Part shown: in pieces, positions 14,126-33,055 of the stretch
Position numbering within the stretch: the stretch's first letter is position 1
Layout of the letters: each line of letters starts with the position of its first letter
Assembly (NCBI GenBank): GCA_012513365.1
Contig: JAAZCI010000062.1
Coordinates: 1 to 35,274, forward strand
From: Lysobacteraceae bacterium
Lineage (GTDB): Bacteria > Pseudomonadota > Gammaproteobacteria > Cardiobacteriales > Wohlfahrtiimonadaceae
DNA: 35,274 nucleotides
Direction: 5' to 3'
Notes under the pieces: model-generated
The model's input: the letters and a program-made list of their open reading frames with translations, nothing else
Databases searched by the model: none
What the model was told of the DNA's origin: nothing
Position numbers and translations under genes: made by a program

Positions 14126-15328
14126 TCAATTAGAAGTGGCAGGCTCTTTCGTCATCATCATGGCTAAGAAACTGAGTAACCCAGCGCAGGCAATGAGATA
14201 AATCATCGCTGCAGGGGAAGCTGATTTACTCTGACTCACAATAAAACTCAAGAGCCCACCGAGTCCAAACTGAACCGATACGGCAAGTCCCGCCGCCGCT
14301 CCAGCCTGTTTTTTCGGGAATAATCCCATTAATTTAGCAATGCAATTTGCGCTCAATAGACCGGTCATACCCACAAAGAAAAAGAGCCCTAACACCACTA
14401 AACTGAGCGGAATATCGATCATTAGGTGAACCACTAACATAAATAGACTCGATCCAAGCACCGTTGTCGCGCCAAAGGCGATCATCTTTTGAGGATCCAG
14501 CGTACGGACTTGCCTTGCGTTAAAGATCGTCATCGCCATAATCGAAAAGATATTCAGCCCGAAAAGAAGCGCATAATGTTGGCTTGTAACACCAAAGTGT
14601 TCGATATAGACAAAGGGAGAGGCGGTAATATAGACAAACATTCCCGCAAACGCCATGCCCATGCAGCCGATATAACCAATCGCTCGGCGATTTTTAAGAA
14701 TCTCAAAATATGAGGTTAACGCCTGTGGCAGTGACTCAATCCGAGCCTCCTCGGGAAGGGTCTCTTTAATATTAATTAAACTTACCAAGGCCGTAAGCCC
14801 GGCGAATATCAACAAAAAAATAAAGATCGAGCGCCAGCCAAAAAAGTCCGCAAGATAACTGCCTAAGATCGGAGCAATCAGTGTTGCGATCATCGTAATG
14901 GTATGCATCCACGATAAAATACGCGCCGAATCTTGCACTGAATAGAGATCACGGACAATCGCTCTTGCCAATACGGAAGCACTTGCCCCACCTAACGCTT
15001 GGGCTAAACGGGCAATAAAGAGCTCGGTACCACTTGCCGCAAAAATACAGCCAATTGTCGCAACAATATAGACAATCATCCCGGTAAAGAGCAGTTTACG
15101 CCGGCCAAATCGATCCGATAATGGTCCATAAAAAAACATTCCGACACTAAATCCGACTAAGAAAAAAGTGATGGTCTGTTTAATCTCACGAATATCCGCG
15201 CCCAAATCGTCGGTGATCATCGTTAAGCTTGGTAGATACATATCGATCGATAGCGGCCCGAAGGCCACTAATGCCGCTAGGATAATAATGAGTCCTGCAC
15301 TTTGTGGAGCGGTCTGAATCTGTCTCAT
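14126..15328 (-). CDS. Bcr/CflA-family MFS transporter in the hydroxylase operon
   Basis: The 400-residue protein has about twelve membrane helices and the Bcr/CflA marks: FGPLSIDMYLPSL in helix 1, GPLSDRFGRRKLL in the loop 2-3 motif, ALGGASASVLARAIVRD in helix 4, and APILGSYLADFFGWRSIF. Known members export drugs or small metabolites. It starts only 12 bases after the C1 reductase stop, with the ribosome binding site AAGGAGGG in the gap, so it is almost certainly transcribed with the hydroxylase. Possible jobs are export of toxic catechol intermediates or of HPA. The substrate is not shown by the sequence. Confidence 0.85.
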   Translation of the reverse strand: MRQIQTAPQSAGLIIILAALVAFGPLSIDMYLPSLTMITDDLGADIREIKQTITFFLVGFSVGMFFYGPLSDRFGRRKLLFTGMIVYIVATIGCIFAASGTELFIARLAQALGGASASVLARAIVRDLYSVQDSARILSWMHTITMIATLIAPILGSYLADFFGWRSIFIFLLIFAGLTALVSLINIKETLPEEARIESLPQALTSYFEILKNRRAIGYIGCMGMAFAGMFVYITASPFVYIEHFGVTSQHYALLFGLNIFSIMAMTIFNARQVRTLDPQKMIAFGATTVLGSSLFMLVVHLMIDIPLSLVVLGLFFFVGMTGLLSANCIAKLMGLFPKKQAGAAAGLAVSVQFGLGGLLSFIVSQSKSASPAAMIYLIACAGLLSFLAMMMTKEPATSN

Positions 15329-15340
15329 AAGACCCTCCTT

Positions 15341-16285
15341 CTATGAATTGGGATCAGGATCGCGGTCGATTAACTCTTTTAGAATCTTTTTAAATACGGT
15401 GATCTCTTCGGAGGTATATTTTTTAAATACTTCCGTTTGGTGGTTTGACGCAATGCTCGCAAGTTTCCCCGCCGCCGCACGCCCCTCTTCCGTTAAACTG
15501 AGCGTTCCTTCCACACATTTTAAGAAGCCTTTTAATTTAAGCGCTTCTACCGCGATATTGATCTCACGCATCGGCATGCCCACTTCTTTGAGCATCTCTT
15601 CTTTTGTTGATCCATGTTCGCCAAGTAAAACCATCGCTAAACGCGCTTCACTTGTACTTAACCCTGAAGAGAGCTGTTTAGGATAATACTCATTTTGATA
15701 GGCGCGAACCGCTTGCGTGAGCAGATAGTGCATATTGTCAAACAAACGCTCATCACAAGAGGAGGCCTCTTTTTTATGAGAATCAGGGTCAATCGCGTGT
15801 CCTGGATGCGGTAATACCGCTGAATACGCCCCTTGATGATAGAGAAGAGGCGGTTTTCCATTATCACTAAAGCCCACCACTTTCCCGACTAAAATAACGT
15901 GATCTCCCCCATCTAAGGTTTCATGGAGTTCACATTCAAAGCTTGCAGCACAATTCGGGAGTAATACCGAACCGCCTGCGCCCTCTTTAAATTCAATGCC
16001 TGCAAAACGATCTTCTGCAGGACGTGCAAAATTGTTCGAAATATTGATCTGATCAACGGCAAGGACATTCACCGCAAAATGCGTTGCATTTAAAAAGACC
16101 TCTTTACTGCCAGAACGGCGATCAATACTCCATAAAATAAGTGCTGGATCAAGTGATACTGAGTTAAAACTATTTGCTGTAACGCCCACTCGATTTCCAT
16201 CTCTATCCGTTGCCGTCATTACCGTTACACCGGTTGCAAAGTTGCCTAATGCGCGACGAAATGCTTTTGGATCAATCTGTCCCAT
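15341..16285 (-). CDS. 4-Hydroxyphenylacetate 3-hydroxylase, reductase component (C1 type)
   Basis: This enzyme uses NADH to make reduced flavin for the oxygenase. The N-terminal part (about 1-165) is a flavin reductase domain: FRRALGNFATGVTVMTA, then GVTANSFNSVSLDPALILWS, NVLA, and FECELHETLDGGDHVILVGKV. The C-terminal part (about 185-310) looks like a MarR-type winged helix. This is the layout of Acinetobacter baumannii C1 (about 315 residues), where the extra domain acts as an HPA-responsive brake. E. coli HpaC is about half this length and lacks the extra domain. It lies 224 bases after the oxygenase gene, so an internal promoter or RNA processing is possible. The start has AAGGAT upstream. 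Confidence 0.92.
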   Translation of the reverse strand: MGQIDPKAFRRALGNFATGVTVMTATDRDGNRVGVTANSFNSVSLDPALILWSIDRRSGSKEVFLNATHFAVNVLAVDQINISNNFARPAEDRFAGIEFKEGAGGSVLLPNCAASFECELHETLDGGDHVILVGKVVGFSDNGKPPLLYHQGAYSAVLPHPGHAIDPDSHKKEASSCDERLFDNMHYLLTQAVRAYQNEYYPKQLSSGLSTSEARLAMVLLGEHGSTKEEMLKEVGMPMREINIAVEALKLKGFLKCVEGTLSLTEEGRAAAGKLASIASNHQTEVFKKYTSEEITVFKKILKELIDRDPDPNS

Positions 16286-16509
16286 ATCCTTATCCCCTTA
16301 AGTCATTGGTTGGTATTGTTATTATTATGTGCTGTTTATCTATTATATTTATAGAAACTGTATAGAAATTAGATTCTATGGCTCCCATCCATTATTACAG
16401 CTATGGATATAAATATCCAAACAAGACCAGCGCTCTGGTATCCACCACGGCCGGCCCTGCTTGGAGGGAGGAACTGTTATTACTATATTTTTAGTAAAAC
16501 AAAATGTGC
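16286..16509. other. 224-base spacer between C2 and C1 with small palindromes
   Basis: No gene is seen. TGGATAT-AA-ATATCCA (16404-16419) is a perfect inverted repeat, and ACCAG-CGCT-CTGGT (16426-16439) is a short hairpin. GGCCGGCC lies nearby. The spacer is long for two subunits of one enzyme, so it may hold a promoter or processing site for C1. Confidence 0.4.
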
Positions 16510-17679
16510 TTATACCATGCTTGGATCGGGATCAAGTCCCATGATTTCACGACCTAAAATTTGCGCACAAACATCATAATCAGTATAGGCATGCGCGCCG
16601 GTCATATGAGAGTCTCTAAAGAGGCGTTGTAATTCATTGCCATCAAACCACGCAGATCCACCGGCTGCTGTAAAGAGGCGATCAACCGCTTCAATACACA
16701 TTTTGACCGCATAACCTTGGTTGGTACGCCAGTACGCTAAACGCTCTTGAGTTGGATACTCTTTGCGCTCACCATGAACTTTGTGATCTTCCCAGGTTTT
16801 CTCTAATAGTGCGCGCGCCGCCAACACTTGATGGGTCGATTCTGCAAGACGCATTAATGCAGGCGTTGCGGTACCGACGCTAGCACCGGTATAGGCACGA
16901 ACGCGGTTTTTAGTACGTTCTTTAAAGGCTTCCAACATGCGCTCTGCCACGCCTAAGCTGATCGCCGCAAACCCACACGCAAAGTATGGACGATATGGTG
17001 TGTAATAGATTTTGCTATCGGGATAGAGACCAAACCCAGCGGATTTACCGGTCATCATATCTTGCGCTGCTTGGATACGGTGTTCAGGGACAAATACATT
17101 CTCAATTTTAAGCATCTTTGAGCCACTGCCCTTCATGCCCATCACAAACCAGTTGTCTACAATGGTGTAATCTTCACGTGGAATCACCGCAAACGAGTAA
17201 ACTTTATTGCCTTCCGCATCATAACGATTACAACCAATAATCGCCCAATCTGCGTGATCACAACCACTGCTCCAGCCCATTTCACCACTTAAACGAATGC
17301 CGCCTTCTACCTCTTCAATGGTACTAAAAGGCGCGATTGAGCTGCTCGCAACAGTATCGGGATTATCTTTCCAAAGTTCGTCTTGAAACTCTTTTGGGAA
17401 CATGGCTAATTGATGATTATGAGTACAGAGAAGACTATACGCCCATGCAGTACCACCACACGCCGATGCAAGCGCTACAACGCACTCAGCAAAATCGGGC
17501 AGAGAGATCTCGTACCCACCGTATGCTTTCGGTAAAAATGCACGATGCAGACCTGTCTCTTTTAATAAGCGAATATTCTCTTCTGGTACTTTTCGCTCCG
17601 CTTCAGCTTTGTCTGCGTTCGCTGCAATAATTGGTAAAATCTTTTCTAAGCGCTCTAAAAGAAAATTAGACTCAGTCAT
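16510..17679 (-). CDS. 4-Hydroxyphenylacetate 3-hydroxylase, oxygenase component (C2 type)
   Basis: The oxygenase uses reduced FMN and O2 to hydroxylate HPA to 3,4-dihydroxyphenylacetate. The fold is the acyl-CoA dehydrogenase-like flavin monooxygenase group, not the HpaB type of E. coli. The 389 residues align from memory with A. baumannii C2 with an offset of 33. His87, Ser113, Ser138 and His363 correspond to its active-site His120, Ser146, Ser171 and His396 (motifs LLCTHNHQ, ASSSIAPF, GWSSGCDHADW, GAHAYTDYD). ATG 17679 is chosen because GGGAG lies seven bases upstream; a 28-residue extension from 17763 looks unlike the family. It heads the C2-C1-Bcr/CflA unit. Confidence 0.93.
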   Translation of the reverse strand: MTESNFLLERLEKILPIIAANADKAEAERKVPEENIRLLKETGLHRAFLPKAYGGYEISLPDFAECVVALASACGGTAWAYSLLCTHNHQLAMFPKEFQDELWKDNPDTVASSSIAPFSTIEEVEGGIRLSGEMGWSSGCDHADWAIIGCNRYDAEGNKVYSFAVIPREDYTIVDNWFVMGMKGSGSKMLKIENVFVPEHRIQAAQDMMTGKSAGFGLYPDSKIYYTPYRPYFACGFAAISLGVAERMLEAFKERTKNRVRAYTGASVGTATPALMRLAESTHQVLAARALLEKTWEDHKVHGERKEYPTQERLAYWRTNQGYAVKMCIEAVDRLFTAAGGSAWFDGNELQRLFRDSHMTGAHAYTDYDVCAQILGREIMGLDPDPSMV

Positions 17680-17764
17680 ATCTCTACTCCCATCTCTTCG
17701 ATCGTTATTATTTTTTATTGATCTTATTGTTTTATAAATTATTTTATGTGATGTCTTTTTCAAG

Positions 17765-17781
17765 GCATAATTCGATTATGC
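17765..17781. promoter_or_regulatory. Perfect palindrome upstream of the C2 gene
   Basis: GCATAAT-TCG-ATTATGC is a perfect 7-3-7 inverted repeat about 85 bases before the C2 start. Further upstream TTTCC occurs at 17810 and 17830, spaced 20 bases apart as AraC-type half sites often are. Either could be where HpaA or HpaR acts. This is inference from position. Confidence 0.4.
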
Positions 17782-17859
17782 GTGATAGATTTCAAATGAT
17801 AAATGTAATTTTCCAAGCTAAACTTGTACTTTCCATATGAATTGTTAATTTATTAGCAA

Positions 17860-17917
17860 ATAAAAAAGAAAGTCGTAACAATAAGGTGCTAAAAATAGTT
17901 CCCATCATTACGACTTT
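17860..17917 (-). terminator. Terminator after gabD
   Basis: AAAGTCGTAA (17869-17878) pairs with TTACGACTTT (17908-17917) around a 29-base loop. On the minus strand the stem is followed by CTTTTTTATTT. A further short hairpin (GAGCC/GGCTC) lies between it and the gabD stop. Confidence 0.7.
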
Positions 17918-17967
17918 GATATTTGACCGAGCCTTTTATGGCGGCTCTATCTTAAAATAATAGTGGA

Positions 17968-19419
17968 TTATATTCCGGCTAACAAGACATATTTAATCTC
18001 TAAATAATCCTCAATGCCGTATTTAGAGCCTTCGCGACCAAGGCCCGATTGTTTAACACCACCAAAGGGTGCTGCCTCATTTGATAACAGCCCTGTATTG
18101 ACGGCAACCATGCCATACTCTAAGGATTCTGTCATGCGAACAATGCGGCCTAAATCTTGGGTGAAGAGATAAGAAGCCAAACCAAACTCAGTATCATTAG
18201 CGTAATTAACAACTTCCGCCTCCGTTTCAAATTTAAATACCGGTGCAAGCGGGCCAAACGTCTCCTCTTTTGCCACCAACATCTCTTGTTTTACATCTTT
18301 CACAATCGTAGGTTTAAAAAAGAGTGACCCAAGTGCCGGATCAATCTCTCCGCCCGTTACCAGCGTCCCGCCTTTTGAGACCACATCATTAATATGCGAT
18401 GTCACTTTTTTAACGGCATTTTCATCGATCACTGGCCCAAGCTCAACCCCTTCGGTTAAGCCATCACCGAGTTTAAGCCCATTTACGGCCTCTGAAAAAC
18501 GCTCAACAAATCGATCATAAATGCCCGATTGCACATAAAAACGATTCGCGCAGACACACGTTTGCCCAGAATTACGGAATTTACTAGTGAGCGCCCCATC
18601 AATCACGGTATCGAGATCCGCATCATCAAAGACAATAAAGGGCGCATTTCCACCGAGTTCCATCGTCACTTTTTTAATGGTTGACGCGCACTGCTCCATC
18701 AATTTTCGCCCAACGCCTGTCGATCCCGTAAAACTAAACTTACGTACGCGCTCATCTTCGGTGAGCACTTTTCCAATCTCAACGGCATCCCCGGTAATAA
18801 TATTGAGCACGCCCTTTGGAATCCCAGCTCGATCCGCTAGTTCTGCAATCGCAAAGGCTGAAAGCGGTGTTTGAGATGCCGGACGCACCACAATGGTACA
18901 ACCCGCCGCTATTGCCGGTGCAATCTTACGGGTAATCATCGCATTGGGGAAATTCCATGGAGTGATCGCCGCGCAAACGCCAATCGGCTCTTTCGTCACT
19001 AAAATGCGTTTATCACTGCTCGGCCCTGGAATAATATCGCCATAAATTCGTTTTGCTTCTTCAGCATACCACTCAATATAGGAGGCACCGTAGGCAATTT
19101 CGCCACGGGCTTCTGACAGCGGTTTTCCTTGCTCTAAGGTAAGAATTTTGGCTAAATCCTCTTGATGCTCCATCATCAGATCAAACCAACGACGCAATAA
19201 CTGACTGCGGGTTTTCGCCGGCACGCTCCGCCATGATTTAAGCGCATCGGTTGCCGCTTCCACCGCGTTTTCTGCATCTAAACGGCTCATCTGCGGGACA
19301 TCGGCAATATGCTCACCATTTGCCGGATTAATCACTGCAACGGTTTCGCCACTAATTGCATCGATCCATTTTCCATCGACGTAACTTTGTGTGCGTAATA
19401 AATTTGAGTCCTTTAACAT
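17968..19419 (-). CDS. gabD: Succinate-semialdehyde dehydrogenase
   Basis: GabD oxidises succinic semialdehyde to succinate. In this context it deals with the product of HpaI. The 483-residue length and the catalytic residues fit E. coli GabD: Glu254 in VTMELGGN and Cys288 in GQTCVCANR, with a second Cys290. The cofactor loop is SFTGSTGVGRKL (about 229-240). In the motif after GCTIVV the usual Lys-Pro is Arg179-Pro, next to the cofactor. The start ATG 19419 has GGGGAG upstream. Terminators on both sides suggest its own transcript. NAD versus NADP use cannot be settled here. Confidence 0.92.
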   Translation of the reverse strand: MLKDSNLLRTQSYVDGKWIDAISGETVAVINPANGEHIADVPQMSRLDAENAVEAATDALKSWRSVPAKTRSQLLRRWFDLMMEHQEDLAKILTLEQGKPLSEARGEIAYGASYIEWYAEEAKRIYGDIIPGPSSDKRILVTKEPIGVCAAITPWNFPNAMITRKIAPAIAAGCTIVVRPASQTPLSAFAIAELADRAGIPKGVLNIITGDAVEIGKVLTEDERVRKFSFTGSTGVGRKLMEQCASTIKKVTMELGGNAPFIVFDDADLDTVIDGALTSKFRNSGQTCVCANRFYVQSGIYDRFVERFSEAVNGLKLGDGLTEGVELGPVIDENAVKKVTSHINDVVSKGGTLVTGGEIDPALGSLFFKPTIVKDVKQEMLVAKEETFGPLAPVFKFETEAEVVNYANDTEFGLASYLFTQDLGRIVRMTESLEYGMVAVNTGLLSNEAAPFGGVKQSGLGREGSKYGIEDYLEIKYVLLAGI

Positions 19420-19494
19420 GTTACTCCCCTTCATTGGTTATGATTCATTTTGTCATTATTGTTGAATTTACGGCCATAAGGCCGGATTCTTTCC

Positions 19495-19544
19495 AATAAA
19501 AAGCCCTGTGAATGTGAGCGTTTTCACCATTAGACAGGGCTTTT
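19495..19544 (-). terminator. Terminator after hpaI (end of the meta operon)
   Basis: AAAAGCCCTGT (19499-19509) pairs with ACAGGGCTTTT (19534-19544), with an inner GTGAA/TTCAC pairing. The minus-strand tail is TTTTTATT. It separates hpaI from gabD. A second small hairpin, CGGCC-ATAA-GGCCG, lies at 19471-19484. Confidence 0.88.
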
Positions 19545-19592
19545 AAAGGTTAACTATAATGCTAATTTCTTTGCGACTATAACGTCAACCCG

Positions 19593-20411
19593 CTAATACA
19601 CCGAGTTGCTATCCTCTTTTTTTGCCCCATTTGGCGCTTTAAATTTATCAAGCAGTGCCTGGCATGATTTCACTAAAATTGAGGTATCAACGCCCACTGC
19701 AACGAAATTAAAGCCCATCTCAATAAAGCGTTTAGCGCCCTCTTCATTTGCATATAAAATCCCCGCGGCTTTCCCGTGAGATTTAATGATTTTAAGCGCT
19801 TCTTTAATCGCCGCTTGCACCTCAGGATGCGATGGATTACCGCGATGCCCCATCGAGGCGCTCAGATCCGCAGGCCCAATAAAGATCCCATCAACCCCCT
19901 CAAGCGAAGCGATAGCATCCAGATTTTTAACGCCTTCAAGTGTCTCAATTTGAAGCAGTAAACACATCTCATCATCGGCTTGATTGAGATAGTCATCGAC
20001 CTGATTCCAACGTGATGCCCGCGCGAGTGCACTTCCCACCCCACGAATCCCTTTTGGGGGATACCACATCGATTTAACGTAGGTTTCAGCCTGTTCTTTT
20101 GTCTCGACCATCGGGATTAAGAGCGTTCTCGCGCCTAGATCGAGAAGCTGTTTGATCACTGCAGGCGAGCCCTCTAAGGGACGAATTACCGGATGAGAAA
20201 TCCCTTCGCTCTCATACGGCGCGATCGCTTGCAGCTGCCTTAACAGGGTTGATACATTATTCGGTGCGTGTTCACCATCAAGGAGAAGCCAGTCATACCC
20301 AATCGATGCAACCATCTCAGCGGTATACCCATTCGCAAGACCCACCCACAGCCCAATTTGAGGCTCTCCTGATTTTAATGCGGCTTTAAACGCATTTTTC
20401 CTAAATTTCAT
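19593..20411 (-). CDS. hpaI: 4-Hydroxy-2-oxoheptanedioate aldolase
   Basis: HpaI is a metal-dependent class II aldolase that splits 4-hydroxy-2-oxoheptane-1,7-dioate into pyruvate and succinic semialdehyde. Residues matching those known in E. coli HpaI are His48 in [10 protein letters not shown], Arg77 in PVIRPLEG, and the metal ligands Glu156 in [10 protein letters not shown] and Asp182 in [10 protein letters not shown]. The 272-residue length is slightly above the E. coli protein, with a short insertion near residue 65 ([11 protein letters not shown]). It is the last gene of the meta operon, with a terminator after it. The start has GAAGGAA upstream. Confidence 0.96.
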
Positions 20412-20468
20412 CTATCTATTCCTTCAATTTTAGAATGTTTCGATCAAATAACGGAACTATCTGATCGT

Positions 20469-21272
20469 TTATCCAAAATAGCAGGTTACTGCGCCAAGTT
20501 CATCATAATCTACATGAAATGTATCGCCTTTGCGCGCTGGCACGGGACGAGTAAATGAACCGCCTAAAATAACCTGTCCTGCTTCAAGCTCAACCCCATA
20601 AGGATGGAGTTTATTAGCAAGCCACGCCACCCCTTTTGCTGGATGATTTAATACCGCTGCAGAGACGCCCGATTCCTCAATCACGCCATTACGATATAAA
20701 ATCGCACTGACTCGGCGAAGATCAAGCTCCGTTGGACGAATCGCCCGCCCGCCCATCACAACGCCGGCATTGGCCGCATTATCAGAAATCGTATCGAAAA
20801 CTTTACGCGTCACCTTGGTTTCAGAATCGACCTGTTCAATCCGCGCATCAATAATTTCTAACGCAGGAATCACCCAATCGGTAGCGTCGAGCACATCGAA
20901 AATCGTGCAATTTGGGCCACGTAGCGGTTTACCCAAGATAAAGGCGAGCTCCACCTCAACGCGCGGTACAATAAAACGATCCGTTGGAATCGTCGTGCCC
21001 TCTTCAAAAAACATATCGTCTAATAACGCGCCATAATCGGGCTCATCAATGTTCGATGAGAGCTGCATCGCCCGCGACGTGAGACCAATTTTATGCCCTT
21101 TTAAAATGCGCCCTTCGGCAATTTTTTGCGCAACCCACGCCTTTTGAATTTTGTAAGCATCGTCAATCGTAATATCAGGGTGCTGAAGGGAAAATTGGCG
21201 TAGCTGTTCTCCGCTTTTTTCCGCCTGATTGAGCGAACGCGCAAGGTGTTCGATCGTTTCTGGTGTTAACAT
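20469..21272 (-). CDS. hpaH: 2-Oxohept-4-ene-1,7-dioate hydratase
   Basis: HpaH adds water to 2-oxohept-4-ene-1,7-dioate to make the HpaI substrate. The 267-residue protein belongs to the hydratase/decarboxylase family. Blocks include [18 protein letters not shown] (about 37-54), [12 protein letters not shown], the metal-site region [18 protein letters not shown] (about 103-120), and [14 protein letters not shown]. The GLTS block and E-x-E (VEVELAF) are as expected. It sits between hpaF and hpaI; the 174-base gap to hpaF is unusually long for this operon and holds a 9-bp tandem repeat. Confidence 0.96.
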
Positions 21273-21446
21273 AGCTCTTCCTTTTAGTTCTCTAGCGCAT
21301 GTCTATGATTGAGTATCACTTAGCATGATATGCGCCATTTATTTTTATAATCTGTCTTACTTGTCTTACTGTTTACTTAAATGCACTTTTACACAAACAT
21401 ACAGAGATGGGCGTACAAAGATGGACAAAGGTTCATGGCAATAGCG
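21273..21446. other. 174-base hpaF-hpaH spacer with a short tandem repeat
   Basis: No gene is visible. TGTCTTACT occurs twice in tandem (21353-21361, 21362-21370) and a third degenerate unit TGTTTACTT follows at 21370. No terminator is evident, so hpaH and hpaI are probably still transcribed from hpaG1. Confidence 0.4.
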
Positions 21447-21845
21447 CTATGACTTTTCGGCCTCTTTTTGTAAAAATGCATGAATATTATTTTTCTTATA
21501 GGTCAATACAGGATCGATCTCCTGCATCTCAAATGTGATCGCTAATAAGCGCTTGTCTTGAATGGGCGCAAGGTAGGATTCGATAACGTTAAAAAGATCG
21601 TCACAGACTTTTTTACGCACCTCCAAATCCCGCCCGGATCCCACTTTTAAAAGAATATGGATAAACGCATAATCGTGCGCTCCATCTGCAATTCGATAAT
21701 GATCCATACGGATTGCGCGACTGCGTATCCCCCCTAAAGGGAATACGCCACTGCCGCCCAAGTTTTCATGTACAAGGGTGAAAAACTGATCAAAATCGAG
21801 CTCATTCTCTAAATTTGCTGAATATTCAACAATAAAATGAGGCAT
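21447..21845 (-). CDS. hpaF: 5-Carboxymethyl-2-hydroxymuconate isomerase
   Basis: HpaF isomerises 5-carboxymethyl-2-hydroxymuconate ahead of its decarboxylation. The 132-residue length is that of the family, a tautomerase-fold protein using the N-terminal proline exposed after Met removal (MPHFIVEYSANL). Other family features are GGIRSRAIRMDHYRIADG (about 38-55) and HILLKVGSGRDLEVRKKV. It lies 43 bases after hpaD and has its own ribosome binding site (AAGGAGAG). No defect is visible. Confidence 0.96.
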   Translation of the reverse strand: MPHFIVEYSANLENELDFDQFFTLVHENLGGSGVFPLGGIRSRAIRMDHYRIADGAHDYAFIHILLKVGSGRDLEVRKKVCDDLFNVIESYLAPIQDKRLLAITFEMQEIDPVLTYKKNNIHAFLQKEAEKS

Positions 21846-21888
21846 GATACTCTCCTTTTTGAATCGTTTAATTGATTAAGGATTAAGA

Positions 21889-22737
21889 TTAATCAAGGGG
21901 GAGAACCGCATTGATTTGCCCTGTACCAGAGCTTGCAAAGAGTTCGGTGATAATTTCAGCTTTGCCCTTATATTCGTCCCAACCGAGAACGCCAAGCAAC
22001 ATTGCCGTATCGTGCATCAACCCTTCGCCGAAGCAATAGTTGGCATATTCAGGGAGCATCGCGCAAAACTCTCCCCAAAGCCCTTCAGTCCACATATCCA
22101 CCACGCGAATGTCCACTTGTCTGTCAAACTCACGAGTGTAACTATTCATTCCCGCTTCTGCTTGTTGGTCCCAAATAAAGCGATGAGAAAGTGATCCGCT
22201 TGCTAATACCGCAACCGTTCCATCATATTCTTTGATCGCTTCCACCAACGCTTCACCAAGTTTACGGCTATCTTGCAGATCGTGAGAGGTACAAAATGCT
22301 GAGATCGAGAGCACTTTAAAATGCTGATCTTCATTCATATACCGCATCGGGACGAGCGTTCCATACTCAAGCTCAAGGCTTTGAACCTCATGTGCCATTG
22401 CGCGAACGCCTTTGCCACGTGCTTTTTCTGCGATCAGGTGACCGAGCTCGGGATTCCCATCATATTTATAGCTCATATCTTTAATGAAGTGAGGTAACTC
22501 ATTACTGGTATAAACCCCTTCAAAATGAGCGTTACAGTTGATGTGATATCCACTATTTACGAGCCAGTGCGTATCAAATACGATAATCGTATCCACGCCC
22601 AGTTCGCGACAACGGCGACCAATTTCAATATGACCATCGATCGCGTTTTGACGGCATCCATGATGCTTTCCTGGTAACTCCGACAGATACATCGACGGAA
22701 CGTGTGTGATTTTTGCTGCTAATGCGATTTTACCCAT
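21889..22737 (-). CDS. hpaD: 3,4-Dihydroxyphenylacetate 2,3-dioxygenase
   Basis: HpaD opens the ring of homoprotocatechuate by extradiol cleavage. It is the class III (LigB-like, non-heme iron) type, as in E. coli, not the vicinal-oxygen-chelate type of Brevibacterium. Visible blocks are AAKITHVPSMYLSELPGKHH near the start, the histidines in THVPS, GKHHGCR and FDTHW, and SGSLSHRFIWD (about 190-200). ATG 22737 (282 residues) is used because AGGAG lies seven bases upstream; a TTG at 22761 would overlap this site. It is 69 bases after hpaE. Confidence 0.95.
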   Translation of the reverse strand: MGKIALAAKITHVPSMYLSELPGKHHGCRQNAIDGHIEIGRRCRELGVDTIIVFDTHWLVNSGYHINCNAHFEGVYTSNELPHFIKDMSYKYDGNPELGHLIAEKARGKGVRAMAHEVQSLELEYGTLVPMRYMNEDQHFKVLSISAFCTSHDLQDSRKLGEALVEAIKEYDGTVAVLASGSLSHRFIWDQQAEAGMNSYTREFDRQVDIRVVDMWTEGLWGEFCAMLPEYANYCFGEGLMHDTAMLLGVLGWDEYKGKAEIITELFASSGTGQINAVLPLD

Positions 22738-22806
22738 GACTATACTCCTAATATTCCTCAACTAATTCGTTGTTATATTTATTGTTATGCGAGGCGCCTT
22801 GGTGAT

Positions 22807-24267
22807 TTAAACACCCCATTTTGGAATGTGGTGATTGCCAAGCGAGATACAGACGTTTTTCACTTCCGTGAAGACTTCTAAACTGTAATCGCCTCCTTCT
22901 CGACCCGTCCCTGAGTGTTTTACTCCACCAAACGGCTGGCGTAAGTCGCGCACGTTTTGAGAGTTAATGAAGACCATCCCGGCTTCAATTTGGGCGGCAA
23001 CACGATGTGCACGCGTTAAATCCGATGTCCAGAGATACGACGACAGGCCATATTCAACATCATTTGCTAAGCGCACCGCTTCTGCTTCATCTTTAAATTT
23101 AAGGAGACAGACCACCGGCCCAAAGATCTCCTCTTGCGCTATGCGCATATTGTTATCAACATCGGCAAAGACCGTTGGCTGAATGAAGTTACCCGCTTTT
23201 AAGTGATCAGGTAATCCCGCAGGACGCTCAAGACCGCCTGCTAAAAGGGTCGCGCCCTCTTCCATACCAATTTTGATGTAACCGGTGACTTTGTTGTAAT
23301 GATCTTGAGTGATCATCGCACCAACTTGCGTGTCAAAACTTTGTGGATCGCCCACTTTAATGCGTTTCGCACGTGCCGCAAATTCAGCGACAAATTCATC
23401 ATAAATGCTCTCTTGAATAAAGATACGAGACCCTGCGGTACAACGCTCACCATTAAGTGAAAAAATGGTAAAGAGCGCCGCATCTAACGCACGCTGCCAA
23501 TCGGCATCATCAAAGATTAACACCGGTGATTTACCACCAAGCTCCATGGAATATTTTTTAATTCCCGCATTGGCCATAATCGCTTGGCCGGTTTTTGTAC
23601 CGCCCGTAAACGATACAGCACGCACATCAGGATGCTGAACTAACGAAGCTCCCGCGGTGCTACCGTAGCCTTGAACAACGTTTAATACCCCTTCAGGAAC
23701 GCCCGCTTCAAGCGCAATTCGGCCAAGCTCATTGGCGGTCAAGGGCGATAACTCAGACATTTTCAATACCGCCGTATTTCCAAGCGCTAAACAGGGCGCT
23801 GTTTTCCAGGTTGCGGTCATAAATGGCACGTTCCATGGTGATACGAGCGCGCACACACCGACGGGCTGATAGAGTGTGTAGTTAAGCATCTGATCATCAA
23901 CGGGATAGGTATGCCCATTAACGCGCGTACACACCTCAGCAAAGAAGTTGAAGTTATGCGATGCACGCGGAATTAATACATTTTGCGTTTGATGAATCGG
24001 AAGCCCAGTATCAAGGGTTTCAAGTTGTGCAATTTTCTCAACATTTTGATCGATCAATTCACCAAAACGGCGCATAATTTTTGCACGCTCTTTTGCCGGT
24101 GTTTTTGACCATTTTGGAAAGGCTTTTTTCGCTGCCGCAACCGCCATATCGATCTCTTTTTGCCCACCACTTGCCACATCACAGATCTTTTCCATAGTAG
24201 CTGGGTTAATATTTTCAAAGGTTTCGTCGCTGGCAACTTCTTTACCATCAATCCAATGCTTAATCAT
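22807..24267 (-). CDS. hpaE: 5-Carboxymethyl-2-hydroxymuconate semialdehyde dehydrogenase
   Basis: HpaE oxidises the ring-cleavage product to 5-carboxymethyl-2-hydroxymuconate with NAD. It is an aldehyde dehydrogenase of 486 residues with Glu242 in SMELGGKSPV, catalytic Cys276 in NGERCTAGSR, and the cofactor block VSFTGGTKTGQAIM. ATG 24267 is chosen because GAGGAG lies upstream; an earlier frame from 24288 runs through that site. A small hairpin (CCTAG-CACT-CTAGG, 24281-24294) directly precedes the ribosome binding site and might affect translation. Confidence 0.95.
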   Translation of the reverse strand: MIKHWIDGKEVASDETFENINPATMEKICDVASGGQKEIDMAVAAAKKAFPKWSKTPAKERAKIMRRFGELIDQNVEKIAQLETLDTGLPIHQTQNVLIPRASHNFNFFAEVCTRVNGHTYPVDDQMLNYTLYQPVGVCALVSPWNVPFMTATWKTAPCLALGNTAVLKMSELSPLTANELGRIALEAGVPEGVLNVVQGYGSTAGASLVQHPDVRAVSFTGGTKTGQAIMANAGIKKYSMELGGKSPVLIFDDADWQRALDAALFTIFSLNGERCTAGSRIFIQESIYDEFVAEFAARAKRIKVGDPQSFDTQVGAMITQDHYNKVTGYIKIGMEEGATLLAGGLERPAGLPDHLKAGNFIQPTVFADVDNNMRIAQEEIFGPVVCLLKFKDEAEAVRLANDVEYGLSSYLWTSDLTRAHRVAAQIEAGMVFINSQNVRDLRQPFGGVKHSGTGREGGDYSLEVFTEVKNVCISLGNHHIPKWGV

Positions 24268-24280
24268 CTCTTTCTCCTCG

Positions 24281-24338
24281 CCTAGCACTCTAGGACTCTA
24301 TTTTTATTCTTCTTATGTCGGCGCGGATTTGCCCGCGC
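24281..24338. promoter_or_regulatory. Two hairpins in the hpaG2-hpaE gap
   Basis: A GC-rich stem, GCGCGG (24321-24326) with CCGCGC (24333-24338), and a smaller one, CCTAG (24281-24285) with CTAGG (24290-24294), occupy the 99-base gap. Neither has a T run on the transcribed strand, so they look like mRNA stabilisers or translation modulators rather than terminators. Confidence 0.45.
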
Positions 24339-24366
24339 TCGGCTCTTTTAATTGGCTGATTATCGA

Positions 24367-25143
24367 TTACGCGTTTTGACGCTGATAAAACTCAGCTTCC
24401 GTTAAAACATGATTGACTAATCGGCCAACGCCTTCCACTTCAATCACAACGGTATCGCCGGCTTTTACATCGGAGGTGCCTTTCGGGCAACCGGTTGCGA
24501 TCATATCACCCGGATTGAGTGTCATAAACTCACTTAAATATTCGATTAAAAAAGGAACGTCAAAGATCATATCTTTCGTATTTCCCTCTTGGCGAAGCTC
24601 GCCATTAACCCACGTTTTTAAACCCAGATTCATCGGATCTTTAACTGCCGATTTATCGAGAATATAGGGGCCAACGGGCGTCATTCCATCACGATTTTTA
24701 ACGCGCAGATTGGGGCGATAATAGTTTTCTAGATAATCACGAATCGCATAATCATTACAGAGCGTGAAACCCTCAACATGCTCCCATGCATCCTCGCGTT
24801 TTACATTTTTTGCGGTTTTGCCAATCACCACCGCAAGCTCACACTCATAATGCATATAATCCACATTATCTGGGCGCCAGCTATGGCTATTGTGACCCAC
24901 ATACGTTCCAGGAGATTTAACGAAAATAAGTGGCTCTTTCGGAGGTTCAAAGGCAAGCTCGGTAGCGTGATCGGCGTAGTTAAGACCAAGCGCAATCATA
25001 ATGCCGTTCGCTGGCGGTAACCACGTAACTTCCGCCTCTGATTTCACCTCACCATTTGGGAGATTCACCGAGAGATCATCGTTAACGGTCACGTTATAAA
25101 TTTCGTTTTGATATTGAATTCGTGCTTTTTTAAGTGCTGACAT
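24367..25143 (-). CDS. hpaG2: HPA-degradation isomerase/decarboxylase, C-terminal subunit
   Basis: This protein matches the C-terminal half of E. coli HpaG, which decarboxylates the product of HpaF (OPET). The 258 residues carry the metal site: Glu100 and Glu102 in MHYECELAVVIG, and Asp131 in CNDYAIRDYLENYY. GLNYADHATELAF and GDMIATGCPKG are also typical of the fumarylacetoacetate hydrolase fold. E. coli has both halves in one chain; here they are separate genes. Its ATG overlaps the hpaG1 stop by one base (TAATG), so the two are translationally coupled and likely assemble together. Confidence 0.94.
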   Translation of the reverse strand: MSALKKARIQYQNEIYNVTVNDDLSVNLPNGEVKSEAEVTWLPPANGIMIALGLNYADHATELAFEPPKEPLIFVKSPGTYVGHNSHSWRPDNVDYMHYECELAVVIGKTAKNVKREDAWEHVEGFTLCNDYAIRDYLENYYRPNLRVKNRDGMTPVGPYILDKSAVKDPMNLGLKTWVNGELRQEGNTKDMIFDVPFLIEYLSEFMTLNPGDMIATGCPKGTSDVKAGDTVVIEVEGVGRLVNHVLTEAEFYQRQNA

Positions 25144-25796
25144 TACGCGTCCTCCCCGCTGATGGTATCGGTTAATGTAGAAATCCCTTCAATGCTCGCA
25201 GTGACCTTGTCTCCTGCCGATACATAGATATTATTCGCCGGCGTACCGGTTAGAAGTACATCGCCTTCATGAAGCGTCATAAATTCGGTAATCGTTTCTA
25301 ATAATTCTGGAAGGTCGCGCACCCAATTTTCACTCGTTTCACGCTGTTTTTCATCGCCATTAACGCTCAGGGTTAAGGTGAGATTATTTAAATCAGCAAT
25401 CTCGCTTAACGGCGTAATGGTTTCATTAATCGTAAAAAAGCCATCGCGACATTTTGCAACAACCGCTGGGCGATAATAACTCTCAATCGGCAGCGAGTAA
25501 TCGTTGGCTACCGTGATCCCTTTTACGTACTCAAGGGCATTTTCTTTCGTCACGCGCGTAGCATCTTTCCCCATTACAATGGCGATATTTGCTCCGGTTT
25601 GTACTTTTTCGAGATTTCCCGCAGGCACAACATTGGTTAAATTATAGGTGTTGGGCGTTTTAATAAAGAGTACTGGCTTTTTCGGTGGCGCAACATAGGG
25701 TTTTTCATTAAACGCCGCTTGATGCGATTCCATCAGCGATTTGAAGTTTAATGCGACACCAAAAACGGTTTTATCAGTCAAATCGAGTTGTGACAT
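25143..25796 (-). CDS. hpaG1: HPA-degradation isomerase/decarboxylase, N-terminal subunit
   Basis: This is the counterpart of the N-terminal half of E. coli HpaG, 217 residues from ATG 25796 (GGAGG upstream). It begins MSQLDLTDKTVFGVALNFKS and shows PPKKPVLFIKTPNT, SYYRPAVVAKCRDGF and LLTGTPANNIYVSAGD. The E-x-E metal motif of HpaG2 is replaced by TGANIAIVMGK, as in the N-terminal half of the fused enzyme, so it probably lacks a metal site of its own type. It is the first gene of the meta operon, behind a strong promoter with two overlapping palindromes. Confidence 0.93.
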   Translation of the reverse strand: MSQLDLTDKTVFGVALNFKSLMESHQAAFNEKPYVAPPKKPVLFIKTPNTYNLTNVVPAGNLEKVQTGANIAIVMGKDATRVTKENALEYVKGITVANDYSLPIESYYRPAVVAKCRDGFFTINETITPLSEIADLNNLTLTLSVNGDEKQRETSENWVRDLPELLETITEFMTLHEGDVLLTGTPANNIYVSAGDKVTASIEGISTLTDTISGEDA

Positions 25797-25840
25797 TACT
25801 CCTCCCATTTATTATTGTTTTATTGTCTGGTTGTTAAATT

Positions 25841-25876
25841 ACTAACATATTAGTATTAACTACGATAATACTAATA
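25841..25876. promoter_or_regulatory. Overlapping palindromes, candidate HpaR operators at hpaG1
   Basis: ACTAACATATTAGT (25841-25854) is a near-perfect palindrome. TATTAGTATTA (25848-25858) and TAATACTAATA (25866-25876) form a perfect 11-bp inverted repeat with a 7-base spacer. Together they cover the -10 box and start region of the hpaG1 promoter. E. coli HpaR represses its meta operon from palindromic sites at the same place, which supports HpaR as the binding protein. Confidence 0.75.
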
Positions 25877-25894
25877 GTTAAAAGCGAATGTCAA
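25865..25894 (-). promoter_or_regulatory. Promoter of the hpaG1G2EDFHI operon
   Basis: On the minus strand a consensus -35 TTGACA (25894-25889) is followed after 18 bases by TATTAT (25870-25865). The predicted start lies near 25858, inside the inverted repeat. This is the best-matching sigma-70 promoter I see in the window. Confidence 0.8.
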
Positions 25895-25929
25895 ATCTAT
25901 TTTGCCGATCTAGATCAAAAACTAAAGAC

Positions 25930-25957
25930 AAAAAAATAGGCCTCTAAATGAGACCTA
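25930..25957 (-). terminator. Terminator after hpaR
   Basis: TAGGCCTC (25937-25944) pairs with GAGACCTA (25950-25957), including one wobble pair, around TAAAT. Seven T follow on the minus strand (25936-25930). It insulates hpaR from the operon promoter immediately downstream. Confidence 0.88.
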
Positions 25958-26002
25958 CTTGAATCGCGATTTAAGCGTTTAAATTTCGATTTTTAAAAAC
26001 CC

Positions 26003-26509
26003 TTAAAGACCTGTTGATTCCGCCTTTTTACGTGATTTTCCATTCACTTTTTGTGGCGCCTCTAATAGTGCGTCATCACTTAAATCTTCCGAGGCTTTAA
26101 CGAGCAATTGATCGAGCACATCTTCTAATTGATAGAGCACCTCATCGCCAACTTTCGCCGCAAACTCATCATAGGCTTTAATGTTCTCTTCTAGCACTTC
26201 CTCAACGAGCGTTTCAACACCGGGCGCAAGAAGCACTTCAACACGGCGGCGATCAAATTTAGAGGGGACTTTAATAATCAGATTGAGATCTTCCATACGC
26301 TTTAAAATCCCCGCCATGCTAGGACTTAAAATACAGCAAATCTCGCATAATTCACGGGGCTCTAACTCTTTTGCTTCATAGAGCGCACGTAAAATACGCC
26401 ACTGCTGTTCTGTTAAATTCCTCTTATTTAAAATGGGGCGGAAATTTTGCATCATCACTTCCCGCGCACGCATCAATAACAGAGGAATATTCCGTTGCAT
26501 GGTATCCAT
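26003..26509 (-). CDS. hpaR: MarR-family repressor of homoprotocatechuate degradation
   Basis: HpaR represses the meta operon and is released by pathway aromatics. The 168-residue protein matches E. coli HpaR in its core: LLMRAREVMMQNFRPIL, then RNLTEQQWRILRALYEA, ELCEICCILSPSMAGILKRM (the recognition helix, about 54-73) and the wing FDRRRVEVLL. The tail after about residue 140 is longer and charged (GKSRKKAESTG). It is encoded upstream of hpaG1 on the same strand but has its own terminator, so repressor and operon are separate units. Start ATG 26509; the region is also a candidate for autoregulation, but I see no matching palindrome there. Confidence 0.93.
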   Translation of the reverse strand: MDTMQRNIPLLLMRAREVMMQNFRPILNKRNLTEQQWRILRALYEAKELEPRELCEICCILSPSMAGILKRMEDLNLIIKVPSKFDRRRVEVLLAPGVETLVEEVLEENIKAYDEFAAKVGDEVLYQLEDVLDQLLVKASEDLSDDALLEAPQKVNGKSRKKAESTGL

Positions 26510-28969: not shown

Positions 28970-30367
28970 ATGTCAGACACATTTCGTATAGAAAAAGACA
29001 CCATGGGTGATATGAAAGTTCCGAGCGATAAACTCTGGGGCGCCCAAACGCAACGTTCATTGCAAAACTTCAAAATTTCTACTGAAAAAATGCCCAAAGC
29101 CCTTATTTACGGCTTAGCTATCGTGAAACGTTCTGCGGCAAAAGTGAATATGGACTTAGGTCATCTTGATGCTAAAAAAGCGGAAGCGATTATGCAGGCG
29201 GCCGATGAAGTGTTAGCGGGCAAACATGATACGGAATTTCCACTTTCTGTGTGGCAGACCGGTTCAGGTACGCAAACGAACATGAATATGAACGAAGTTC
29301 TTGCAAACCGCGCAAGTGAAATTCTTGGCGGCGTGCGTGGTGAAGAGCGTTTAGTGCACCCAAATGATGATGTGAATAAAGCGCAAAGCTCAAACGATTC
29401 ATTCCCTACAGCAATGCACATTGCAGCGGTTTCAAGCATTAAAAACAATCTCATTCCAGAACTTAAAAATCTTCAAACAACGTTTGCTAAAAAATCAGAT
29501 GAGTTTAAAGATATCGTTAAAATTGGCCGTACGCATCTTCAAGACGCAACGCCATTAACGCTTGGCCAAGAGATTTCAGGTTGGGCAGCGATGCTAGCGC
29601 ACAACTTAGTGCATATTGAAAATGCCCTTCCCCATTTAGCGGAATTAGCTCTCGGCGGAACAGCGGTTGGAACAGGACTTAACACCCATCCTGAATACGC
29701 TGAGCGCGTTGCCAAAGAGATTGCTGAATTTACCGGCATTCCGTTCACCTCAGCACCCAATAAATTTGAAGCGCTCGCCACCACTGATGCAATTGTTCAT
29801 GCACACGGTTCATTAAAAGGCCTAGCAGCATCATTAATGAAAATTGCTAACGACGTTCGCTGGTTAGCATCAGGCCCGCGTTCAGGTATTGGCGAATTAT
29901 CAATTCCTGAAAATGAACCAGGCAGCTCGATCATGCCAGGTAAGGTTAATCCGACCCAATCAGAAGCGATGACAATGCTCGCAGCCCAAGTAATGGGGAA
30001 CGATGTGGCAATCAATATCGGCGGTGCATCCGGTAACTTTGAACTCAACGTTTTCCGCCCAATGATCATCAATAATTTCCTACAATCGGTGCGTCTTTTA
30101 GGCGACGGAATGCAAGGATTTAACGATCACTGCGCCGTAGGCATCGAGCCAAACCGTGACCGCATTAAAGAGCTCGTGAATAATTCACTCATGCTCGTTA
30201 CCGCGCTTAACACCCATATCGGTTACGATAAAGCGGCAAAAATTGCGAAAAATGCCCATGCAAAAGGCACAACTCTCAAAGAGTCTGCCCTTGAATTAGG
30301 CTACTTAACGGAAGCCCAATTTGATGAGTGGGTTAAACCAGAAGAGATGGTCGGCAGCTTAAAATAA
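28970..30367 (+). CDS. fumC: Fumarate hydratase class II
   Basis: FumC interconverts fumarate and malate without an iron-sulfur cluster. The 465-residue protein carries all family marks: [13 protein letters not shown] (98-110), the catalytic His189 in [15 protein letters not shown], and the signature [11 protein letters not shown] (318-328), whose serine is the second catalytic residue. The start ATG 28970 follows AAGAGGAG by about ten bases. It stands alone, with a strong terminator after it. It joins the succinate made from HPA to malate, but no regulatory link is visible. Confidence 0.98.
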
Positions 30368-30448: not shown

Positions 30449-31492
30449 CTAAAACCAAGCCATCACAATCTTGCCATTAATAAAGGTGAAGATCGGATTA
30501 TAAATCCTCGTCGTCCCTCTCACACTATTTTCCCAGCGTAATGGTGAAACCAATGTGTATCCTTTTCGGTTTAATCTGAACAACTTACCCCCGGCATAAA
30601 TCTCTAAATCATAATCATCGATCGTTAATGGATTCGCCTTATAAACATCGGGGTTTAAATTAAAATAGTGATGGAACGTATCGGCAAAGGAAAATTCAAA
30701 CTGACCTTCCGCATTGCTATCCCCATAATGCCGCGCCATATCGGAAACCCCGGGCTCAACTAATTGACGTACCGCTTTTTTATCCTTATCCGCAACGGCC
30801 TTTAAGATCTCTTGATATTTATCCCATAGCCTTTTTTTATTTTCAGGCGTATTTTCAAAAGGCGTCGAATCATTGACCCAACTAAACGGTTGGTGATGAT
30901 TCACGATAAATGATCGCGATGCCAAGGTTTCTTGTACAGGTTTTTTGTCTGCATCATAAACATGCGGTAACTGTTTTAGCCCTACTTTATTCGATGATAA
31001 GCGCTCATCTAAATTTATATTCGACTCATCAACAGAAAGTAAATAAGGAAAATTGCGTTTTAACCATTTGGGATTCTTTTCATATGAATAACGAACATTA
31101 CTCACGGTTTTACGCTCTATATCCCCTGTAGTGGGGTTTTTTACAGTGGCAAGAATATCAACCTCACAATAACTCTGCTCTATTCTATGAGATGGAATGT
31201 ATTCCGCAATATTAGTAGCTTCTATAGATAATTCATTTTCGCCTTGATCTACATACTGTGTGATATCTTGCCCAAAGCTAATCTGTATAGGGTTCTTACC
31301 TTTACCAACACTATCATAAGTACTATATACAAAAACGCCATTAATGCGGACAATGCAAGAGATATAGTTTGCCTTAAAACGTAATTGGTACTTCACTTGT
31401 GGAGTGTTCTGTTCTGTTGCCTTAGCCATACCGATCATCATGATGACTAAAAATAATAGATAAGATAATTTTTTTACTAAATCTGTTTTCAT
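30449..31492 (-). CDS. Exported hypothetical protein
   Basis: The 347-residue protein has an N-terminal signal peptide (KKLSYLLFLVIMMIGMAKA, about residues 7-25) and no later membrane segment, so it is probably periplasmic or secreted. Residues about 30-130 look like a beta-sandwich (LRFKANYISCIVRINGVFVY, then ENELSIEATNIAEY). Two cysteines (in SCIV and YCEV) could form a disulfide. The C-terminal half is charged and mixed (about 215-300), and the chain ends YNPIFTFINGKIVMAWF. I do not recognise a named family. It could follow the membrane-protein gene at 31605-32225 in one transcript; the gap is 112 bases. Confidence 0.8.
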   Translation of the reverse strand: MKTDLVKKLSYLLFLVIMMIGMAKATEQNTPQVKYQLRFKANYISCIVRINGVFVYSTYDSVGKGKNPIQISFGQDITQYVDQGENELSIEATNIAEYIPSHRIEQSYCEVDILATVKNPTTGDIERKTVSNVRYSYEKNPKWLKRNFPYLLSVDESNINLDERLSSNKVGLKQLPHVYDADKKPVQETLASRSFIVNHHQPFSWVNDSTPFENTPENKKRLWDKYQEILKAVADKDKKAVRQLVEPGVSDMARHYGDSNAEGQFEFSFADTFHHYFNLNPDVYKANPLTIDDYDLEIYAGGKLFRLNRKGYTLVSPLRWENSVRGTTRIYNPIFTFINGKIVMAWF

Positions 31493-31604
31493 ACTTTTTT
31501 ATTCCTTATCCTTTCTGACTAGCCTGTTTTTAAAATAATCTTCTTTCCGCAAGAAACTCATAGCGCTATATCAAATAATATTGCCTAATCAGTCATATAT
31601 TTAT

Positions 31605-32225
31605 CTAGGCATAATCCAATTTTTGAGCATCCACTTTAAAACTAATAAAATAGCTAATACCAATTTGCCCTAAATAGAAAAAGAGACCAAAAGCGAGGGC
31701 TACATTAGGGGTATCGAGGAAGATTCCCCCCGTTTTTGCGGCTAAAGCGAGGTAGTTCGATTCATCTAAAAAAGTAGGCGTTAAACCCAAAACAGGAATT
31801 TTTTCATAGCTAAAGGCAATGATAACGGCAAGAAAGAAATAGAGGGACGCATTTAATGACGCAGCGAAAATTTGTACATTCCGCATCTCAATGCTGCGAT
31901 CTAAAATGGGTTCAATCATCCTTTGAAAAACGATACAAAGATAGAGATAAAAGATGCTATTGCCCGGAACACTGATGCTAAAAATAAAGACAAAGAGCCC
32001 ATAAATTGGGATAAAGAGAAACTTAACGAGAGCTGATGGAATCACGGCCATAAAAACGCCTGAATGAACAAGAAAAAACTCGATCGCCATAAGCGTTGCA
32101 AGCGTATAGATCGCCTCTCCTTGATCTAATCGGGGCGAGATCCAGAGTTGCAATATCTCAAAAATAATTAGACCAACAAAGAATGTTGAGAATATAAATG
32201 AGATGATCCGACCCTGTTTTTCCAT
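31605..32225 (-). CDS. Multi-pass membrane hypothetical protein
   Basis: The 206-residue protein is mostly hydrophobic, with about six membrane helices (roughly residues 7-29, 38-60, 64-88, 92-106, 118-142 and 172-196). Charged residues are confined to short loops (KIPV, PILDRSIEMRN). There is no catalytic motif that I recognise. It starts at ATG 32225 with GGAAGGAT upstream and precedes the exported protein on the same strand. The possible pairing with an exported protein is the only hint about function. Confidence 0.75.
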   Translation of the reverse strand: MEKQGRIISFIFSTFFVGLIIFEILQLWISPRLDQGEAIYTLATLMAIEFFLVHSGVFMAVIPSALVKFLFIPIYGLFVFIFSISVPGNSIFYLYLCIVFQRMIEPILDRSIEMRNVQIFAASLNASLYFFLAVIIAFSYEKIPVLGLTPTFLDESNYLALAAKTGGIFLDTPNVALAFGLFFYLGQIGISYFISFKVDAQKLDYA

Positions 32226-32324
32226 AGCAATCCTTCCAACCTATTTCTATCATTTTGTTAGAAGATTCTATCACTTATATCAATAACATCAATATTATAC
32301 GATATTTTTCATTATCAACATGTC

Positions 32325-32379
32325 ATCTGTTATCTTTTTATAAGAAATAAATGAACTTACTTTTGAAGTTATAACAGAT
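32325..32379. repeat. Long-range inverted repeat at the end of the DUF1294 gene
   Basis: ATCTGTTAT (32325-32333) and ATAACAGAT (32371-32379) are perfect reverse complements 37 bases apart. The right copy covers the stop codon of the minus-strand gene. A T-rich loop lies between. It may end transcription, though it is not a classical terminator. Confidence 0.35.
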
Positions 32380-33055
32380 ACCCTGCTACTTCCTGGTAAA
32401 TCATCTGTAATCCTTGGAAGTTAAAAAAGATCAGGTCAATCCATACCAATAAATGCAGCGTGACGATCGTCCAAAAAACAAATTGATAGCTGCCTTTTGA
32501 GCTTTTATGTCGCCAGATTTTTTGAGCAAAAAACCCGCCGATCCAGCCGCCGAACAGTTCAAAGAGATGGAGCGTACTCTCGGGAATGCGCCATTCATCT
32601 AAAAGCGCTGAATTCTTATCACTTCGATACAGTTTTAGCGTAATCAGGCTCGTCACAATATAGGTAATCGGAATCATCACCAGATAGATTGAGGAAATCG
32701 ATAAAAAAGAGTGATACGCCATATACGCTTGAAGCCTGTCGCTATCGAGGAGCTCATGATCGCGAAAGAGGATAAAAATCCCCACCATAACGCTAACAAA
32801 CGTAATCGTAAAATAGAGATTTTTCTAAATCGAATGAACGGGGCGTTTTTTAACACGACTTCCATGAATCTCCGTGGCGCGAAATCCCTTTTCCGTCATA
32901 ATTTGGGTAAACGTGAGTGAATCCCCAACTTTCGGTTTTGCACCGGGAGGAAAGTCACTAATATGTGCAAATACCTCGCGCTTTCCCGATTGAATAAATC
33001 CAAATTTACGCGCCTTATCCCAATTAATCAGCGTCCCGCCGTGCCGTTCGATCAT
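32369..33055 (-). pseudogene. Cold-shock domain plus DUF1294 protein split by an in-frame TAG
   Basis: From ATG 33055 the frame encodes a cold-shock-like domain (GGTLINWDKARKFGFIQSG, then VFAHISDFPPG; residues 1-76) and meets TAG at 32827-32825. The same frame then continues for 151 codons as a DUF1294 membrane domain: RIPESTLHLFELFGGWIGGFFAQKIWRHKSSKGSYQFVFW (quoted as PESTLHLFELFGGWIGG and KSSKGSYQFVFW), with about four helices. Proteins with exactly this fusion are common. The ATG at 32788 that could start the second part has no ribosome binding site and would cut the first helix. So I read one gene broken by a single nonsense codon. Separate genes or a sequence error are the alternatives. 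Confidence 0.8.

Follow-up and report, generated by a model that had tools for sequence, protein, structure and literature searches.

Close to the end of the 35,274-nucleotide stretch of DNA analysed here (the window), an in-frame TAG codon separates the two parts of a single reading frame, and we asked whether this codon marks a gene in decay, a fault of the assembly or a stop that is read in an unusual way. The original prediction had named recent gene decay, an error-rich assembly and leaky stop codons as three interpretations. Only the first came through: it is the best supported, given an intact fusion in the same species and a part behind the stop that still looks selected, while the other two were not supported. 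Judging from the sequence comparisons, the fused gene at this locus is dispensable and most probably carries a nonsense allele that is recent and confined to this strain, a reading to which we assign a probability of roughly 0.7.

Translation of the minus strand from 33055 to 32369 yields 76 codons, the TAG at 32827-32825 as codon 77 and a further 151 codons that run in the same frame up to a TAA (Table 1). For the first part, the match to the cold-shock domain family PF00313 (CSD) scores 25.5 bits (E 1.2e-5), slightly short of the curated cut-off of 27 bits, and we therefore call this part cold-shock-like. Among the intact orthologues described below, that of genome G057 likewise scored below this cut-off (24.8 bits) and that of genome G011 above it (30.7 bits). 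FGFI and VFAHIS in this part are similar to the motifs RNP1 and RNP2, and binding to single-stranded nucleic acid is predicted. The second part matches PF06961 (DUF1294) with 70.5 bits, well above its curated cut-off of 25. The placement of the TAG between a cold-shock part and a DUF1294 part of one frame, as originally proposed, is thus borne out by the translation, the Pfam matches and the uninterrupted frame in G057 and G011. Since both of these genomes hold the two parts in one frame, the TAG-split frame is, as judged from this comparison, more than a product of chance.

Table 1 Features of the interrupted gene and of its surroundings, in positions of the window.
Feature	Position	Strand	Description
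Cold-shock-like domain part	32828..33055	-	76 codons ahead of the premature stop; translation and PF00313 match
Premature in-frame TAG	32825..32827	-	Codon 77; sense codon in G057 and G011
DUF1294 membrane part	32369..32824	-	151 codons and TAA, in frame after the stop; PF06961 match
First in-frame ATG past the stop	32786..32788	-	No Shine-Dalgarno pairing; within the first hydrophobic segment
Stretch of raised divergence from G057	30501..32768		Starts within the gene, 57 bases past the TAG

The genome that contains the window as its contig 215 (G000) comprises 2.27 Mb in 305 contigs and is 97.04% complete, with an estimated contamination of 6.91%. Its family is probably that of Wohlfahrtiimonas, its genus a different one. 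A second genome of the same species, G057 (3 contigs, 99% complete), carries the intact gene at the same place: query residues 1-227 align at 95% protein identity and the neighbours are collinear, as for the window gene, but the orthologue has no internal stop and ends one residue earlier. Positions 966-35274 of the window are collinear with G057 except for 40 bases. These lie downstream of the gene (32322-32361), are present in the window and are missing from G057. Positions 1-965 are not collinear with the G057 stretch that was fetched and match it only in short pieces at 88-91% identity. Elsewhere in the window, positions 14126-26509 hold a gene run, with regulators and transporters, that we take to resemble an aromatic degradation cluster of the hydroxyphenylacetate type.

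Beyond the species, G011, which belongs to another genus, encodes the same fusion at 48% identity and without a stop. When the read-through protein was searched in 57 genomes including G000, 20 matched, and a stop inside the match was found only in the G000 copy. Against named genomes, the read-through protein as a query found no relative; an alignment query yielded at least 468, of which the best 80 were kept in a ranking that leans towards fusions because the query itself was fused. In 76 of these best 80 loci the match runs from residue 7 or earlier through DUF1294, and the remaining four are DUF1294 alone. The exact cold-shock motif stands in frame in 70 of the 80, and six more match from residue 7 or earlier without it. 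These CSD-DUF1294 fusions (PF00313 and PF06961; Pseudomonas, Stutzerimonas, Xanthomonas, Methylococcaceae and others) share the domain order and a similar length with the window gene. In an alignment of eight relatives from which the window copy was left out, 16 columns are invariant, and its DUF1294 part keeps all of them. In contrast to the window gene, none of the best 80 loci (of at least 468) has a stop inside the matched stretch. A comparison with relatives had been proposed as a check, and a TAG shared by relatives together with a conserved second start would have spoken for two normal genes; instead, the TAG codon is absent from G057, G011 and these 80 loci and, among the sequences compared, occurs in G000 only.

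One published study reports a CSD-DUF1294 fusion that is specific to Stenotrophomonas rhizophila and proposes that it contributes to stress tolerance (PMC7404187). Our literature search on DUF1294 and the fusion found no study of its function, and a search on bacterial membrane-anchored cold shock domains combined with stop codon readthrough found nothing.

How old the stop might be can be approached from the divergence between G000 and G057. In the DUF1294 part (148 codons), pS is 0.29 and pN 0.03 (pN/pS 0.11), whereas the 76 codons of the cold-shock part contain just two changes, one of them synonymous and the other nonsynonymous, too few to judge selection. Since the DUF1294 part differs mostly silently, the comparison points to a recent stop, and the low pN/pS together with the 16 invariant columns suggests that the gene has not been dead for long. 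At the 12 residues that differ between the two copies, G011 shares the G057 residue once (codon 77) and the G000 residue once, and differs from both at the other ten, so that it is informative at codon 77 only.

The divergence is unevenly distributed. From 966 to 30400 the two genomes differ by 1.9% on average, and dense divergence extends from 32768 down to about 30500 (2-18% per 250 bases); raised values also occur elsewhere, in the 250-base pieces at 29751 (5.2%) and 33251 (3.6%). This pattern makes a recombination edge inside the gene, at 32768, probable, with either genome as the recipient. Had G000 taken up this stretch at a time when the stop was already present, the pN/pS behind 32768 would say little about the age of the stop; a weak sign of a young one would then remain in the 57 bases from the stop to the edge, which are unchanged. 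The stretch also holds orf347 and orf206 (30449-32225, minus strand), two fast-changing frames with no Pfam match at E 0.01, of which orf206 has a different end from that in G057. Across the 29 window genes that were compared with G057, coding indels occur in orf347 (30449-31492) alone, where there are six that sum to nine bases.

The explanation that competes best with a nonsense allele is that the draft assembly has one wrong consensus base, or shows a minority variant, at the TAG and that the fused gene of the strain is intact. The stop is carried by a single sequence, the G000 assembly, which with 305 contigs and 6.91% contamination resembles a draft or a metagenome assembly. The intact gene of G057 speaks for such an error, the mostly silent divergence behind the stop fits an intact gene equally well, and a second nonsense codon lies on the same contig, at 2220. 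We compared the 29 window genes with G057. Two G000 stops lie well inside genes, the TGA at 2220 and the TAG at 32827-32825, both sense codons in G057, and none of the 29 genes shows a net frame shift. Summed over 25 of the 29, the codon differences amount to 447 synonymous versus 35 nonsynonymous; synonymous differences lead in the four genes set aside, too (DUF2145 17/10, orf347 41/24, orf206 20/15 and the CSD-DUF1294 gene 26/14).

Furthermore, all G057 open reading frames (ORFs) with 100 codons or more were projected onto G000. Of the 77 comparisons obtained, 29 fall in the window and 48 on three further contigs. Two of the 77 are cut well inside, both within the window, and none of the 48 on the other contigs is cut by a stop. 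In a third, the homologue of orf206, G000 has a TAG four codons before the end; here we considered the end shifted rather than the gene broken. With 29 of the 77 ORFs in the window, two nonsense genes would both lie there by chance with a probability of about 0.14, and their nearness is therefore unremarkable. The reverse projection of 76 G000 ORFs onto G057 revealed no stop well inside and one stop a single codon before the end of the DUF1294 ORF. It also revealed three L033 ORFs whose net indel lengths are not divisible by three, and in one of these ORFs there are stops at the very end, too; these (L033:1039-2361, 14572-15453 and 15534-15995) are possible frame shifts or shifted ends in G057. 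Because of the codon differences, the lack of net frame shifts and the uncut ORFs on the other contigs, we conclude from these comparisons that the G000 assembly is not error-rich, and we reject the proposal that an error-rich assembly caused the stop. The same counts speak against an isolated consensus error, which we consider unlikely while giving it real weight.

The interrupted gene had been described as the second single-nonsense gene in 35 kb. The statement stands in so far as a further gene is interrupted in the window, although the first gene was not named and its identity is our assignment: it is probably the DUF2145 gene at 1560-2423 on the plus strand. This gene matches PF09916 with 171 bits when the stop is rendered as X, and its premature TGA (2220-2222) is codon 221 of 287, a sense codon in G057.

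We then considered whether the part behind the stop could still be made. Low-level readthrough of the TAG, or reinitiation 12 codons on, would yield much free cold-shock-like domain and little membrane-anchored fusion. The position of the stop, right at the junction of the soluble domain with the first hydrophobic segment, would suit such an arrangement, as would the frame behind it, which is open to its natural end and conserved. The next ATG does lie 12 codons past the TAG (32788-32786) and, as predicted, lacks a ribosome binding site: its upstream region gives +0.3 kcal/mol against the anti-Shine-Dalgarno string, i.e. no pairing, compared with a median of -2.4 kcal/mol across 134 internal ATGs and -4.2 kcal/mol at the gene's own start at 33055, which has AGGA/AAGG upstream. 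Because 3 of the 19 listed gene starts are similarly weak (-0.6, +0.4 and +0.5 kcal/mol), the missing Shine-Dalgarno sequence alone is not proof. The 19-residue windows of the first hydrophobic segment start at residues 78-81, with the TAG as residue 77 and the ATG as residue 90, so that initiation at this ATG would cut the segment.

The decoding of TAG in G000 argues in the same direction. Release factor 1 (prfA) is present (550 bits), none of the 32 tRNA genes found, an incomplete set, has the CUA anticodon that reads UAG, and 7 of 27 window genes terminate in TAG. TAG is thus a normal stop in G000, and on these three observations we reject a reassigned TAG or an amber suppressor strain. A gene with programmed stop-codon readthrough is not supported either, as the stop is absent from G057, G011 and all of the best 80 named loci and is no conserved device. 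Leaky stop codons, as originally considered, are not supported in view of the same lack of conservation, of release factor 1, of an amber tRNA that was not found and of the two nonsense codons of the window, which differ (TAG and TGA); the proposed two products from low-level readthrough lack support on the same grounds. With no Shine-Dalgarno sequence, an ATG inside the hydrophobic segment, release factor 1 present, no UAG-reading tRNA found and TAG as a normal stop, neither readthrough nor reinitiation above background would be expected, and we regard both as very improbable. Still more speculative would be a TAG that serves as a tunable switch, giving mostly free cold-shock-like protein and, by readthrough, a little of the membrane-anchored form; a fused RNA-binding membrane protein would then have been split for regulation only recently.

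Two normal separate genes are scarcely credible and are rejected: G001, G004, G006, G005 and G013 have DUF1294 with no in-frame cold-shock part and four of the best 80 named loci (of at least 468) are DUF1294 alone, but the same-species G057 copy is one frame and already contradicts this reading, the second part has no Shine-Dalgarno sequence, and the stand-alone frames of G001, G004 and G006 have their own N-terminal residues, which do not form a cold-shock domain.

These stand-alone proteins are informative about the history of the fusion. In G005 and G013, a short DUF1294 frame is present with no cold-shock part in the same frame. The relatives of the Wohlfahrtiimonas type (L003, L004 and L005) encode a DUF1294 protein that likewise has no in-frame cold-shock part. 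The stand-alone protein of Wohlfahrtiimonas (L104, W. populi) consists of DUF1294 only and is 53% identical to the G057 protein; unlike the window gene, frames of this type have N-terminal residues of their own and no in-frame cold-shock part. Because the Wohlfahrtiimonas-type proteins lack this part, the distribution indicates that the family has seen a gain or a loss of the CSD-DUF1294 fusion. Moreover, a DUF1294 match is missing in 10 of 18 family genomes; among the 15 with a completeness of 90% or more and a contamination of no more than 5%, it is missing in 8. G000 also contains a second, typical cold-shock gene (95.8 bits). On the grounds of this missing match in 10 of 18 genomes and of the other cold-shock gene, the fused gene is, as far as gene content tells, dispensable, and its loss would be tolerable since the typical gene is there.

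Taken together, we propose that the normal state is one fused protein, composed of an N-terminal cold-shock-like domain of about 65 residues, which probably binds nucleic acid, and of DUF1294 as a small membrane domain. In the strain of the window, codon 77, which lies in the hinge that connects the two domains, would recently have mutated to a stop; this would end the protein after the cold-shock-like part, and the membrane part would then be untranslated or nearly so, as it has no good start of its own. The stop, seen in one assembled sequence, is here taken as real in the organism. The first part may still be made as a free soluble protein of 76 residues, or may be degraded; the truncated product would hold the whole cold-shock-like domain and may persist. 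With the membrane part lost, the normal function of the fusion would presumably be abolished.

Nonsense alleles of dispensable genes are common, and the locus most probably holds an ordinary strain-specific one. This assignment agrees with the intact copy at the same place in the same species and with a stop that removes the conserved DUF1294 part and leaves it no evident start, although 3 of the 19 listed starts lack a Shine-Dalgarno sequence as well. Since another genome of this species has the gene intact, the TAG looks like the result of ordinary gene loss in recent times, or of one sequencing error, rather than of a novel mode of stop-codon decoding. The finding matters little alone; if the stop is real, the strain would provide a natural knock-out, or an anchor-free form, of a CSD-DUF1294 fusion.
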